Positions 1 through 5,208 of a stretch of DNA of 47,255 nucleotides are shown piece by piece. The notes beneath the pieces are model-generated. The model was not told where the DNA came from. It did no database searches and saw nothing but the letters and a program-made list of their open reading frames with translations. Numbering within the stretch: the first letter of the stretch is position 1; the number at the start of each line of letters is the position of its first letter. This DNA is from Truepera sp. (GTDB lineage Bacteria > Deinococcota > Deinococci > Deinococcales > Trueperaceae): contig JAGXSJ010000093.1 of assembly GCA_018333895.1 (NCBI GenBank), positions 1-47,255 on the forward strand. Direction: 5' to 3'. The position numbers and the translations under genes are program-made.

Positions 1-196
1 CCTCTGCTTGCCCGCCAAATCGTTTGAGCATGGTAGTTAGAACATTAATTAGGGTCGTCTTGCCCGCACCGTTCGGACCTAATAGCGCTACCGGCACGCC
101 TGGCTCAAGCTCCAAGTCTATGCCGGCTAGGGCTATCACCTTGCCGTAGCTGACGCGCAAGTCAGTTGCGGATACTGCCTTCGGACTTTGTTTCAC
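1..196 (-). CDS. ABC transporter ATP-binding protein, 5' part only (drug/antibiotic export type)
   Basis: Only the first 65 codons lie in the window; the gene continues past base 1. The frame opens with GTG at 196, preceded by a clear GGAGG at 205-209. Near residue 42 there is a Walker A, GPNGAGKTT, and before it the SYGKVIALAGIDLELEPG segment typical of ABC nucleotide-binding domains. The type of N-terminus and the TetR-like palindromes in the promoter suggest a DrrA-like efflux ATPase; the substrate is unknown. Confidence 0.8.
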   Translation of the reverse strand, partial: MKQSPKAVSATDLRVSYGKVIALAGIDLELEPGVPVALLGPNGAGKTTLINVLTTMLKRFGGQAE

Positions 197-217
197 CGGA
201 ACCACCTCCAAGCATAA

Positions 218-261
218 TTGACCGCATGGTCAATGATATCATCATCTGACCGCACGGTCAA
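218..261 (-). promoter_or_regulatory. Promoter with two TetR-type palindromic operators
   Basis: Reading the minus strand, TTGACC (261-256) and TATCAT (238-233) are separated by 17 bp and lie upstream of the ABC gene. Two palindromes of the same kind overlap it: TTGACCGCATGGTCAA at 218-233 and TGACCGCACGGTCA at 247-260. One covers the -35 box and the other lies just after the -10 box. Such TTGACC-n4-GGTCAA dyads are typical of TetR repressors of drug exporters. No TetR gene is in the window. A further half-site, TGACCGCAGGCA, is at 288-299. Confidence 0.65.
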
Positions 262-387
262 GGGGTGCTATTAGGCATGGCCTTGACTGACCGCAGGCAT
301 AACTCGGGTGCTGAGAAGCAAAAGGGACGGAGCCTTTTGCTTCACGGGGCAGCATTGCCGCATGTCGCGCTCCTCCGTCCCTCAGCG
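262..387 (+). promoter_or_regulatory. Probable CRISPR leader with alternative hairpins
   Basis: This gene-free stretch lies directly before the first repeat, on the side expected for a leader given the repeat orientation (GGGGATGAACCG end facing the spacers). It carries a perfect 11-bp inverted repeat, GAAGCAAAAGG (315-325) with CCTTTTGCTTC (333-343), loop 7 nt. A second perfect 9-bp pairing, GGGACGGAG (324-332) with CTCCGTCCC (373-381), cannot coexist with the first. No obvious -35/-10 pair was found. The leader role is inferred from position. Confidence 0.5.
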
Positions 388-2670
388 CTATTCCCCACGC
401 CTGTGGGGATGAACCGCTGCCATCGAGAGCGCGATCATGGACAGTGCTCTATTCCCCACGCCTGTGGGGATGAACCGCCAGAGCAACATCGTGCGCGAGT
501 TCGACGCCACTATTCCCCACGCCTGTGGGGATGAACCGGTTGATTCGCACTTGCACAATCGCGGCAGCGCCTATTCCCCACGCCTGTGGGGATGAACCGG
601 GTTGATCAGGGAAGATGTTGGAAGTGTCACCCTATTCCCCACGCCTGTGGGGATGAACCGCCGGCGCACTGGATTGGCGACAGAAAGCAGTCCTATTCCC
701 CACGCCTGTGGGGATGAACCGGCAACCCTCCTCTCCGGTATCTTCCCCGAGGCCTATTCCCCACGCCTGTGGGGATGAACCGATCCCTCCCGCTCCCGAA
801 TCCGCTGAACAACCTATTCCCCACGCCTGTGGGGATGAACCGGAACGGTCCATCAGCATACGGGTGACTAAAGTCTATTCCCCACGCCTGTGGGGATGAA
901 CCGTCCTTGCCGGTATCAGAGCCGTAGGGATAAGCCTATTCCCCACGCCTGTGGGGATGAACCGAGGTTGAGCAGGTGCCATCGGCGGCATACCCTCTAT
1001 TCCCCACGCCTGTGGGGATGAACCGTGGGGCTTGCGCTTGGCTCCTGGTTTGTGGTACTATTCCCCACGCCTGTGGGGATGAACCGTATCGGCCCTAGTG
1101 TTGGACTGCCGGACCATTCTATTCCCCACGCCTGTGGGGATGAACCCACCACGCTCCAGTCCGAGTGCGTAGCGGCGGTCTATTCCCCACGCCTGTGGGG
1201 ATGAACCGCGGTGATCGTTGGCCGCGCCCGGCACAACACTCTATTCCCCACGCCTGTGGGGATGAACCGCTCGAACACCACCCGATAGGCTCGAAATAAC
1301 CTATTCCCCACGCCTGTGGGGATGAACCGGCACCGCTTAGGCGAAGCTTCAACCCCACCCCCTATTCCCCACGCCTGTGGGGATGAACCGGTCGACGCTG
1401 ACCTGCTGCGCCGCGTCGATGCCTATTCCCCACGCCTGTGGGGATGAACCGTCAAGCCGCACCCCATTCTGAGCGCGCCTAGCCTATTCCCCACGCCTGT
1501 GGGGATGAACCGATACCGGGTCAAGGTCTTCCAAGGCGGAGTCACTATTCCCCACGCCTGTGGGGATGAACCGGAGCCAGTTGGTACGAGCCCCCGCTTG
1601 ATGCGCTATTCCCCACGCCTGTGGGGATGAACCGTACGGAGCTTGACACTCCCACGGCTAAAGCCTCTATTCCCCACGCCTGTGGGGATGAACCGATATG
1701 GGACAATCCAGACAAGATCAGGGTTAGCTATTCCCCACGCCTGTGGGGATGAACCGATTTAGGACGATATTGGCAATACCGCCTGCCGCTATTCCCCACG
1801 CCTGTGGGGATGAACCGGCCAGCTTAGGCGGGCGCGCGCCCGCCTGGGCTATTCCCCACGCCTGTGGGGATGAACCGCCGCCTTCGTGTTTGAGGGTGAT
1901 TTTTAGGGCCTATTCCCCACGCCTGTGGGGATGAACCGCGAAACACCCCCTTAGTCGTCTTGTTCTCGCCCTATTCCCCACGCCTGTGGGGATGAACCGA
2001 GCCAGGCTGCGGCTGTTACGTGCCAAACAATCTATTCCCCACGCCTGTGGGGATGAACCGCCAAAAGTCAAGGTCTCTCCTGAGGCATCCCACTATTCCC
2101 CACGCCTGTGGGGATGAACCGGAAACACGACATGGAACACTGGTTACATACGCCTATTCCCCACGCCTGTGGGGATGAACCGCCAGGGGGCAATGAATCA
2201 GCGCCGATCGGCACCTATTCCCCACGCCTGTGGGGATGAACCGACCCACATTGCGGAGTTCCCCAACGGCCCAGTCTATTCCCCACGCCTGTGGGGATGA
2301 ACCGCGATATGCCAGCCACATAATGAAATCGACGCCCTATTCCCCACGCCTGTGGGGATGAACCGAGGCCGAGCGGGCGCTAGGGATAGAGCACGTACTA
2401 TTCCCCACGCCTGTGGGGATGAACCGCGAATCGCGAGTTGATTTTGGCGGATACCGTACTATTCCCCACGCCTGTGGGGATGAACCGGCTAACGCCATGC
2501 CCGAGAGCCCCCGCGACCGCTATTCCCCACGCCTGTGGGGATGAACCGGACTGGTATGTCTACGTTCGAGAGAGCGGCGACTATTCCCCACGCCTGTGGG
2601 GATGAACCGAAGCGAGCTGTTAAAGCACGTCTATCGCAGGCCTATTCCCCACGCCTGTGGGGATGAACCG
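388..2670 (+). CRISPR. CRISPR array, 38 repeats of 29 bp, type I-E-like
   Basis: I counted 38 repeat starts from 388 to 2642 and 37 spacers. The repeat begins CTATTCCCCACG and ends GTGGGGATGAACCG; its CCCCAC/GTGGGG arms form the usual I-E stem. The period is 61 bp (32-bp spacers) except for three 31-bp spacers before the repeats at 814, 1301 and 1849. Repeats are almost invariant; the one at 1119-1147 ends in C instead of G. No spacer duplicates were noticed by eye. No cas gene is in the window, so the type call rests on repeat family and spacer length. The 38th repeat is perfect, and a degenerate 39th stands about 1.06 kb further on at 3733. Confidence 0.97.
1826..1845 (+). repeat. Perfect 20-bp palindrome inside a CRISPR spacer
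   Basis: AGGCGGGCGC is followed at once by its reverse complement GCGCCCGCCT. The palindrome occupies most of the 31-nt spacer at 1818-1848, between the repeats starting at 1789 and 1849. Confidence 0.95.
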
Positions 2671-3127
2671 GTCGCATCAAGCGCAAATCGAAGCGGAAGG
2701 GCTCGGATTCGCCGACCTTAAGCTTCGACATATCGGGGTGTTGGGGGTTGAGCAGGTAGTTGAATTGCCGCGGAATAACGACGCTGGGGACGCGCAGCAG
2801 CAGGCTGCGGCCCTCGGCTACCCAGCGGTCGCCGAGCGCTTGCGCCTGCGTGGGCGGCCTGAGCTGGTCCCAGCCCTCGGGGAGCGCGTCGCCGCTCACA
2901 GCTTCAACCAGCACCTCATCAAAGGTAAGCTCGAGCATCAGATAGTCCTGCAGATCCTCCTCCGAGCGAGTATGCACCAGGATTTCCAGGGCGGCCAAAG
3001 CAGGGCTGTCAGAGAGGTAAGCAACCCGCGTCCCTTTGCTGTTCCAGCGGCCACCAAAGCGCCGGGCGCCCTCTCCTTCGAGAGCGCCCGAAATGTAGCG
3101 CGCCTTGACAAGCCGGTAAGCCCTCAC
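2642..3127 (-). CDS. RES-domain toxin of a RES/Xre toxin-antitoxin pair
   Basis: 161 residues from GTG at 3127, overlapping the antitoxin stop by 4 nt (GTGA), so the pair is translationally coupled. The RES family signature is visible: an early Arg in VRAYRLVKARY, then GARRFGGRWNSKG, YLSDSPALAALEILVH, and the late motif containing PSVV and FNYLLNPQHPD. The family is known for NAD+-depleting toxins (ParT/Res/MbcT type). The natural C-terminus FRFDLRLMR is where RES proteins normally finish. Here the frame continues into the reverse complement of the CRISPR repeat, which supplies the last residues, about PVHPHRRGE, and the TAG stop at 2644-2642. Core motifs look intact, so the toxin may still work. 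Confidence 0.88.
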   Translation of the reverse strand: MRAYRLVKARYISGALEGEGARRFGGRWNSKGTRVAYLSDSPALAALEILVHTRSEEDLQDYLMLELTFDEVLVEAVSGDALPEGWDQLRPPTQAQALGDRWVAEGRSLLLRVPSVVIPRQFNYLLNPQHPDMSKLKVGESEPFRFDLRLMRPVHPHRRGE

Positions 3128-3546
3128 GTGATGACTCCGTGCGCCAGGCGCATGATCAGGTCCTCGACCTCCTCGGCGCCGATGTCGGTGTCCAGGTAGT
3201 CGATCGGCCGCTTGTACCCCAGGCCGCGCACCGGCTCGCGGAGCCACGTGCCCAAGCGGTGGCTGTGACTAAAAAGTTCCTCGCCACGAGCGACGATCCG
3301 GGCGAGGCGCAAGAGGCGTTGTGACTCCTCGAGGCTGAACTGCCCCTGCTTGTAGCGGCGCATCAGCGTCCGCTCGGGGATGCTCAATGCCTCGGCCAAG
3401 GCGCTGCGGGACCAGCCGAGGCGCTGTTGCAGAATCTCGAAGCTCCTTACCGGCAAGCCCTCACGCAAGGCGTCAATGAGCGCGTCGGTGTCTTGCACAG
3501 CGAGGCCGAGTACGTCGCTGGCACTGTAGACCGGGTTGGCCAGCAT
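3124..3546 (-). CDS. Xre/MbcA/ParS-type antitoxin of the RES toxin
   Basis: 140 residues. Start ATG at 3546 has AAAGGAG at a good distance, better than upstream starts in the same frame. The middle holds a helix-turn-helix (RLGWSRSALAEALSIPERTLMRRYKQG, about residues 45-70). The C-terminal half resembles the DUF2384 toxin-binding domain (LLRLARIVARGEELF, then GTWLREPVRGLGYKRPIDYLDTDIG). Antitoxin precedes toxin, the usual order for RES/Xre loci. Probably autoregulated through the dyads at 3565-3588. Confidence 0.88.
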   Translation of the reverse strand: MLANPVYSASDVLGLAVQDTDALIDALREGLPVRSFEILQQRLGWSRSALAEALSIPERTLMRRYKQGQFSLEESQRLLRLARIVARGEELFSHSHRLGTWLREPVRGLGYKRPIDYLDTDIGAEEVEDLIMRLAHGVIT

Positions 3547-3564
3547 GAACGCTCCTTTCCGCAC

Positions 3565-3603
3565 CTGGCAGCACCTTAACTGCCAGTTGCATAATTCAGT
3601 ATA
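3565..3603 (-). promoter_or_regulatory. Promoter and operator dyads of the RES/Xre operon
   Basis: On the minus strand a TATACT hexamer lies at 3603-3598, followed by overlapping dyads: CTGGCAG (3565-3571) with CTGCCAG (3580-3586), and AACT-n3-AGTT (3578-3588). They lie between the -10 box and the ribosome binding site, a fitting place for autorepression by the Xre protein. No convincing -35 was seen. The operator role is inference. Confidence 0.45.
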
Positions 3604-3626
3604 GGTCATGCCGAGCTGGGGAGCCC

Positions 3627-3732
3627 CTACGCTGCACCCGCCTCGCGCTTGGCGAGCGCGTACAGTTCGCGCCCCTCCTCCTTGGTGAGCAGCGTGAAGC
3701 TGGCGATGCGGTTCTTGGCACAACGGCTCGCC
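3627..3732 (-). pseudogene. 3' end of an unrecognised gene next to the RES/Xre pair
   Basis: A short open stretch ending in TAG at 3629-3627 encodes about 35 protein-like residues, including NRIASFTLLTKEEGRELYAL and KREAGAA. It has no start of its own; the frame stays open into the degenerate CRISPR repeat. It looks like the tail of a gene carried with the toxin-antitoxin pair and cut at the repeat border. Family not recognised. Confidence 0.4.
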
Positions 3733-3761
3733 CTATGCCCCACACCTGTGGGGATGAACCG
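3733..3761 (+). repeat. Isolated degenerate terminal CRISPR repeat
   Basis: This 29-bp unit matches the array consensus at 27 positions, in the same orientation. Differences are T to G at position 5 and G to A at position 12. It stands 1,062 bp after the end of the 38th repeat. A degenerate leader-distal repeat is usual in I-E arrays, so this is probably the original end of the array, now separated from it by the RES/Xre segment. Confidence 0.9.
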
Positions 3762-3810
3762 CAGATGTCGCGCTATTCCGGCGCCCCTGGCAGGGTGTTA
3801 GCATAGGGGC

Positions 3811-5208
3811 ATGGCGGCGATCTATCAGCAAGCCAGGCCGCACACCTTTGCGCAGGTAGTCGGCCAGGAGCACGTTAAAGAGGTGCTGGTCACGGCTATT
3901 GCCAAGGCGCGCCTGGGCCATGCCTACCTGTTTAGCGGCCCGCGCGGGGTGGGCAAGACCACCACCGCCCGGCTGTTAGCTATGGCGGTCAATTGCCAGG
4001 CGGCGCCTTCAGCCCGCCCCTGTGGCGACTGCGCCTCATGCCGGCTAGTCCGGCAAGGGAGCCATCCCGACGTCATTGAGCTTGACGCCGCCAGCAACAA
4101 CTCAGTCGAGGATGTGCGCGACCTGCGCGAAAAAGTCGGGCTGGCCGCGGCGCTCGGCGGCACGCGGGTGTGGATCTTAGACGAAGCCCACATGCTCAGC
4201 CGGGCCGCCTCCAACGCGCTGTTAAAGACGCTAGAGGAGCCGCCCTCCCAGCTGCTGTTCGTGTTGGCGACCACCGAGCCCGAAAAGCTCCCCCCCACCA
4301 TCCTCTCACGCTGCCAGCACTTCCGCTTCCGGCGCCTCAGCGAGGCCGAGATTACCGGCAAGCTGGCGCAGCTCTGCCAGCAGGCCGACGTTCCAGCCGA
4401 GCCGGGCGCCTTGCAGTTAGTAGCTAAGGCGGCTGATGGCGCCATGCGCGACGCCGAGTCACTGCTCGAGCGCCTGTTAGCGATCGGCGAAATCACCCAT
4501 CAAGCCGCCGAGGAGGCCTTGGGGCTCCCGCCACAGAGTCGGCTGTACCGCCTGGCCCAGCACTTAGCCGCGCGCCATGTGGGCGAGCTGCTCAGCAACG
4601 CCGCGGCGCTCTATCAGGACGGCTTCTCGCCGCGCAGCCTGTGCCATACTCTTAAACTGACGCTGCGCGAGGCGCTTTACAGCAAAACCGGGCTTACCCC
4701 CGACGGGCCAAGCCTTGACCTCTCTGAGGCTGAGCTGCTCCGGGCAATCCACACCCTGGATGACGAAGATGCCCGCTTTGTGCGCCGCGACGACCTGTTT
4801 TCGCTGGAAGTAGCGCTGATTAAGGTGCTCAACGCGCTGAGCCCTGCCACAGTGCCCAGCTCTGAGCCGCAGACCGTGCCCAACGAAGCGGCTCAGCCCA
4901 AACCGGTGCAGGCTATCGCAACGGCGCCCGGCGAAGCGGCCAAGCTCAACTGGCGCGACCTGCTCGCTCAGGCCGGCCCCCAGCTCAAGGCCTTCATGAT
5001 GCCGGCACAGGCGGATGTCGCTGAGGACCGCCTCACGCTGACCTTCCCGGACAGCCACCGGTTTCACTTTGAGCAGCTCAAGCGCCGTCAGGCCGAGCTT
5101 GAGGAGCTCGTCAGGAGCGTAGCCGGCAACGCCTGCATCGTCGTCATCCAGGGCCCTCAGGAAAGGTTCTCGCTGCGCTCGGAGCGTGACAGCCCAAAAA
5201 AGCCCTAG
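3811..5208 (+). CDS. dnaX: DNA polymerase III subunit gamma (short form, zero frame)
   Basis: 465 residues in the unshifted frame. Clamp-loader ATPase: Walker A GPRGVGKT (residues 43-50), zinc-binding cysteines in CGDCASC plus an earlier NC, DEAH-type Walker B WILDEAHML, sensor 1 ATTEPEKL, SRC finger ILSRCQHF. ATP-driven loading of the beta clamp at replication forks. TAGCAT at 3799-3804 ends 6 nt before the ATG, so the mRNA is probably leaderless. The TAG at 5206-5208 follows directly after an A6G slippery run, and a protein-like extension lies in the -1 frame, so this is one of two expected products. Confidence 0.95.
   Translation: MAAIYQQARPHTFAQVVGQEHVKEVLVTAIAKARLGHAYLFSGPRGVGKTTTARLLAMAVNCQAAPSARPCGDCASCRLVRQGSHPDVIELDAASNNSVEDVRDLREKVGLAAALGGTRVWILDEAHMLSRAASNALLKTLEEPPSQLLFVLATTEPEKLPPTILSRCQHFRFRRLSEAEITGKLAQLCQQADVPAEPGALQLVAKAADGAMRDAESLLERLLAIGEITHQAAEEALGLPPQSRLYRLAQHLAARHVGELLSNAAALYQDGFSPRSLCHTLKLTLREALYSKTGLTPDGPSLDLSEAELLRAIHTLDDEDARFVRRDDLFSLEVALIKVLNALSPATVPSSEPQTVPNEAAQPKPVQAIATAPGEAAKLNWRDLLAQAGPQLKAFMMPAQADVAEDRLTLTFPDSHRFHFEQLKRRQAELEELVRSVAGNACIVVIQGPQERFSLRSERDSPKKP

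Follow-up and report, generated by a model that had tools for sequence, protein, structure and literature searches.

The window analysed here is the whole of contig C93 (47,255 nucleotides) from a draft genome of Truepera sp., an assembly of 2.84 Mb in 178 contigs that is 98% complete and 8% contaminated. Near its left end lies a type I-E CRISPR array (388..2670, plus strand, leader side left) with 38 repeats of 29 bp and spacers of 31-32 nt. The repeat, CTATTCCCCACGCCTGTGGGGATGAACCG, is perfect in 37 of the 38 copies found from 388 to 2642; the sole imperfect one, at 1119, has an altered last base. A further copy on the same strand, at 3733..3761, stands 1,062 bp beyond repeat 38 (2642..2670) and bounds a terminal inter-repeat segment at 2671..3732. 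This degenerate terminal repeat, CTATGCCCCACACCTGTGGGGATGAACCG, differs from the array repeat at 2 positions (27/29 identical) and keeps the hairpin CCCCACA/TGTGGGG. By simple counting, a 27/29 match would occur by chance about 1e-7 times per genome, which is negligible. No extra copies were found in the window at up to 9 mismatches, so the 1,062 bp are free of decayed repeats. The repeat scan thus bears out what had been read from the letters alone, namely 38 repeats reaching 2670 and a degenerate same-strand repeat at 3733-3761.

Across the genome, the repeat is confined to two contigs, with 39 copies in C93 and 23 in C19. The 23 copies directly follow a complete type I-E operon (cas3, cas8e, cas11, cas7, cas5, cas6, cas1 and cas2), whose genes were named by reading frames and gene order, without a family search. 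The intact cas operon, including I-E cas1 and cas2, is therefore located on a contig other than that of the window. In a relative (G036), arrays keep a spacing of 31-33 nt right to the terminal repeat, and the last repeat of one array is decayed, in agreement with the earlier view that a degenerate leader-distal repeat is normal. Two I-E-type arrays lie in the G036 region C1:2489900-2507600; they face opposite ways, roughly 13 kb separates them, and their repeats differ in the loop. Searches returned no phage targets for the spacers and no RNA families in the window or in C19, and PADLOC reported no system.

The terminal segment carries a RES/Xre toxin-antitoxin pair on the minus strand. The RES toxin (2642..3127) has 161 codons plus a stop, with a GTG start at 3127 and a TAG at 2644-2642, and its domain is complete: it matches NF049844 over 147/147 positions (172.7 bits, cut-off 110, E 3.8e-51) and PF08808 with 115.7 bits (cut-off 23.2). 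Residues R27, Y37 and E48 are invariant in an alignment of 11 sequences, and we take them to be the catalytic Arg, Tyr and Glu of the RES pocket, following the residue roles in ParT, Res and MbcT. Among solved structures, ParT (6d0h) and other RES toxins are the closest. An AlphaFold model built from the 11 sequences has a mean pLDDT of 83 and finds its best fold match in ParT (TM 0.79); pLDDT falls below 50 only in the loop at 21-28 and in a tail at 155-161 that derives from the CRISPR repeat. We infer that the fused toxin would still fold and work.

The Xre antitoxin (3124..3546, 140 aa) combines an Xre-like HTH with an MbcA/ParS toxin-binding C-terminal domain, as indicated by PF20432, PF09722 (52.8 bits, cut-off 24.5) and NF049845 (113.1 bits, cut-off 90), and its stop overlaps the res start by 4 nt. 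Just upstream of xre, an inverted repeat with 11-bp arms, GCACCTGGCAG-N8-CTGCCAGTTGC (3561..3590), is likely to be the operator for autoregulation; for xre, no sigma-70 promoter of strict, canonical form was found. The pair is probably functional. RES would degrade or transfer NAD+ as in ParT, Res and MbcT, and Xre would bind RES and repress the operon at its own operator, with CRISPR taking no part in this control.

The pair is an ordinary member of the known ParT/ParS kind of family. Its closest counterparts are ParT/ParS (6d0h), Res-Xre of P. putida (6gw6, 9r35), VPA0770/0769 of V. parahaemolyticus (8gug) and MbcT-MbcA of M. tuberculosis (6fkg), with which it shares the antitoxin-then-toxin order, the overlapping genes, the RES fold, the R/Y/E set, the ParS/MbcA-type toxin-binding domain and an operator-like palindrome. 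Unlike in that group, the pair here lies between two CRISPR repeats, and the toxin has no stop of its own, its last 9 residues and stop being supplied by a repeat. RES/Xre pairs are widespread: within the order, 56 of 111 genomes have them, this genome carries six, and they occur on 1,805 plasmids. The nearest RES is about 53% identical to the one described here and the nearest Xre 66%.

Both borders of the segment appear to cut a gene. On the left, the RES reading frame runs through repeat 38, which, read backwards on the minus strand, encodes residues 153-161 (PVHPHRRGE) and the stop; residue 153 shares base 2671 with the segment, and the TAG corresponds to the first three bases of the repeat. 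Homology to other RES proteins extends to residue 152 (base 2672), at most 1 nt before the edge of repeat 38 at 2670. Most homologues end 0-12 residues past the equivalent of residue 152, one of them (L006) ends in RP, matching the reading in the window, and ParT itself, in the 6d0h chain, stops at the counterpart of R152. Since homologues end near this position, the native RES stop has been lost, and repeat 38 has provided the 9-residue tail and the TAG. It is unusual for a toxin reading frame to end within a CRISPR repeat, and the case described here is a single locus in one draft genome. The repeat-derived tail also offers a clean test of how far a RES toxin tolerates C-terminal extension.

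On the right, a gene stub (ASRCAKNRIASFTLLTKEEGRELYALAKREAGAA, 3630..3731, minus strand) represents the 3' end of a gene that stops at 3627-3629 and was apparently truncated by the degenerate repeat. Its frame stays free of stops as far as 3731 and scores highest of the six for codon use (14.7 bits, the next being 4.5), and the region shows the GC pattern of a gene. No convincing match to the stub came from 111 genomes across the phylum, from phage and plasmid sequences or from NCBIfam, and a 30-aa version gave no match in Pfam. The right border is likely to fall at the repeat edge, judging by this reading frame; because the stub has no homologues, its exact position there is supported, not proven. 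The sequence-only reading, which had placed the RES/Xre pair and the stub exactly between the two repeats, consequently stands to within 1 nt on the left and is supported, though unproven, on the right.

The resident gene at this site is dnaX (3811..5208, plus strand), whose extended -10 element (GTGTTAGCAT, GTGNTAGCAT; 3795..3804, plus strand) is shared by most members of the family and lies 33 bp beyond the degenerate repeat. We found dnaX in 35 of 39 family genomes and inspected the loci of 29 relatives together with seven longer ones. None of these loci has RES, Xre or a CRISPR array upstream of dnaX, so the array and the toxin-antitoxin pair both appear to be later arrivals at this site. 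An ancestral RES/Xre neighbour of dnaX, the arrangement that would have contradicted the sequence-only reading, was looked for in these loci and is rejected, and the arrays of G036, normally spaced to their ends, likewise agree with its preference for insertion over ancestral order. No array was found beside other RES loci among those examined; one candidate near a RES locus (L051) turned out to be an irregularly spaced tandem repeat that is probably coding and not CRISPR. Since no relative carries the pair or an array at dnaX and no array accompanies the other RES loci, the pair seems to be a derived insertion, neither an ancestral neighbour of dnaX nor a conserved companion of CRISPR. No donor or second copy of the segment was found in the same genome, in plasmids (DNA), or in phages and IMG/VR (protein pattern), and no empty site was found in a comparison that had only one genome for the genus; the case for insertion is therefore drawn from absence.

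Taken together, we lean towards a reading, with somewhat better than even confidence, in which the RES/Xre operon and the fragment of a neighbouring gene are passengers, inserted as a 1,062-bp piece into the oldest slot of the array. The array itself would first have become established in front of dnaX. An entire RES/Xre operon of type II, together with the fragment of its former neighbour gene, would then have entered the leader-distal, and hence oldest, inter-repeat position, one insertion event presumably creating both borders.

Two other origins for this layout have to be weighed. The array could end at repeat 38 beside a chromosomal RES/Xre pair, with 3733-3761 as an orphan repeat that stayed behind from a different array or a previous locus, and with no entry into a spacer slot. 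Orphan repeats do occur in the family (a lone copy stands in G028), RES/Xre pairs are frequent, and the two arrays of this genome, with rearranged flanks and shared elements of 25-70 bp, point to probable breakage at array edges. However, unrelated neighbours would not need genes cut at repeat edges on both borders, as suggested by the lost RES stop and the apparently truncated stub, and the last repeat has retained its strand and 27/29 identity, so we regard two separate features as a possible but doubtful explanation. It is also conceivable, though unlikely, that the assembly has joined unrelated pieces at the common 29-bp repeat. A draft of 178 contigs with 8% contamination invites such errors, and a repeat-caused misjoin would place the joins exactly at repeat edges. 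Yet all 62 repeats are internal to the two contigs and no contig ends in a repeat, unlike the loose ends that a misjoin leaves, which makes a chimera less likely; moreover, the second junction falls at a repeat with two unique changes, and the GC content of the segment (64%) is close to that of the contig (62%).

If the segment did enter as one piece, two routes come into question, each of which we would tentatively credit with near one third. The first is an aberrant integration of the Cas1-Cas2 type that took up an overlong fragment. As in type I-E acquisition, the DNA is enclosed by a pair of repeats, whose edges its ends seem to meet, and the genome encodes I-E cas1 and cas2; flanking repeats are the product expected of Cas1-Cas2 integration, yet the segment, gene-sized at 1,062 bp, is 33 times the normal length, unlike type I-E spacers of 31-33 nt. 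The second is recombination between repeat-bearing DNAs, which would leave flanking repeats but requires a donor that already had such a layout. A segment that seems to start and stop at repeat edges, with repeats flanking it and genes cut at its two ends, fits Cas1-Cas2 integration and recombination about equally well. Transposition into CRISPR loci is comparable in that foreign DNA interrupts the locus, and IS insertions in cas genes have been reported (PMC10359306). The segment differs from such cases because the CRISPR repeat is the only sequence common to its two sides, and it shows neither a transposase nor terminal inverted repeats, nor any target duplication apart from that repeat.

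The literature searched contained no insert of such gene size in a spacer position. Entry in one piece at repeat edges, if true, would be a naturally occurring example of a spacer position filled by gene-sized DNA and would bear on how strictly Cas1-Cas2 measures length and whether arrays can take up whole genes. If recombination or two neighbouring features account for the locus, it would represent an ordinary passenger toxin-antitoxin pair adjoining an array. A more speculative extension, which we consider improbable, is that Cas1-Cas2, maybe through two half-site events, took up a gene-sized piece with an intact plasmid-type RES/Xre operon as the first 'spacer' of the array, with Xre serving as an anti-addiction module against plasmids that carry the cognate RES. 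Stored Xre would, in that case, let CRISPR clear such plasmids without post-segregational killing. Chromosomal toxin-antitoxin pairs are known as anti-addiction modules (review PMC12548467); one stored within an array would be new.

The sequence-only reading had further suggested that the pair could penalise loss of the array, as CreTA does. In CreTA (type VIII), the CreA RNA is a guide that recognises the toxin promoter by a spacer-like match beside a PAM; the classical toxin is likewise an RNA (PMC9458426, PMC8501985). Like CreTA, the toxin here adjoins CRISPR with a degenerate repeat nearby, and a pair within an array would be lost together with it. A set of 62 guides, one of them the sequence that follows the degenerate repeat, was compared with both strands of 2600-3812, and none combined a full seed with an AAG PAM at the xre promoter. 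Full-seed matches numbered 16, against about 9 expected by simple counting, and the sole AAG-flanked one lies inside res with 13/32 bases matching, which is at chance level. The scan thus gives no CreTA-type guide at the xre promoter, and the analogy fails on its defining feature. Also unlike CreTA, whose RNA antitoxin acts through Cascade, the antitoxin here is the Xre protein, part of a protein pair with its own putative operator, and the intact cas genes are on another contig. The arrangement does not recur either, the other RES loci examined having no neighbouring array. A CRISPR-linked guard that penalises loss or inactivation of the array is thus very improbable, and this part of the earlier proposal is not upheld; in a weaker, generic form, a toxin-antitoxin pair might still hinder the loss of DNA to which it is linked.

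The flanks of the array have features of their own. A 70-bp element (315..384) with an internal inverted repeat directly precedes the first repeat, and its other genomic copies lie only beside the C19 array. A 94% copy is located 1.27 kb past that array (L087 705-777, minus strand), and the last 25 bp of the element (L087 1973-1997, minus strand) directly follow its final repeat; all three occurrences in the genome, whole or partial, are array-adjacent. These shared elements of 25-70 bp and the rearranged flanks indicate that breakage near array edges has probably occurred in this genome. The left flank of the window (1-387) has no similarity to the cas2-side leader in C19, so the 38-repeat array may lack a working leader. 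One C19 spacer seemed to match a further site in the window (reverse index 44985), which proved to be the window array itself. C19 starts at the start of a tetR gene and the window contig opens within an ABC transporter gene that has TetR-like boxes (TGACCGCAYGGTCA), which suggests that the two contigs may be adjacent in the genome. Directly behind the degenerate repeat, ATGTCGCGCTATTCCG (3762-3780) shares 14 of 16 bases with the motif preceding the first repeat of the array, and a near-identical motif follows the last repeat of the C19 array; it is possibly a shared array flank.
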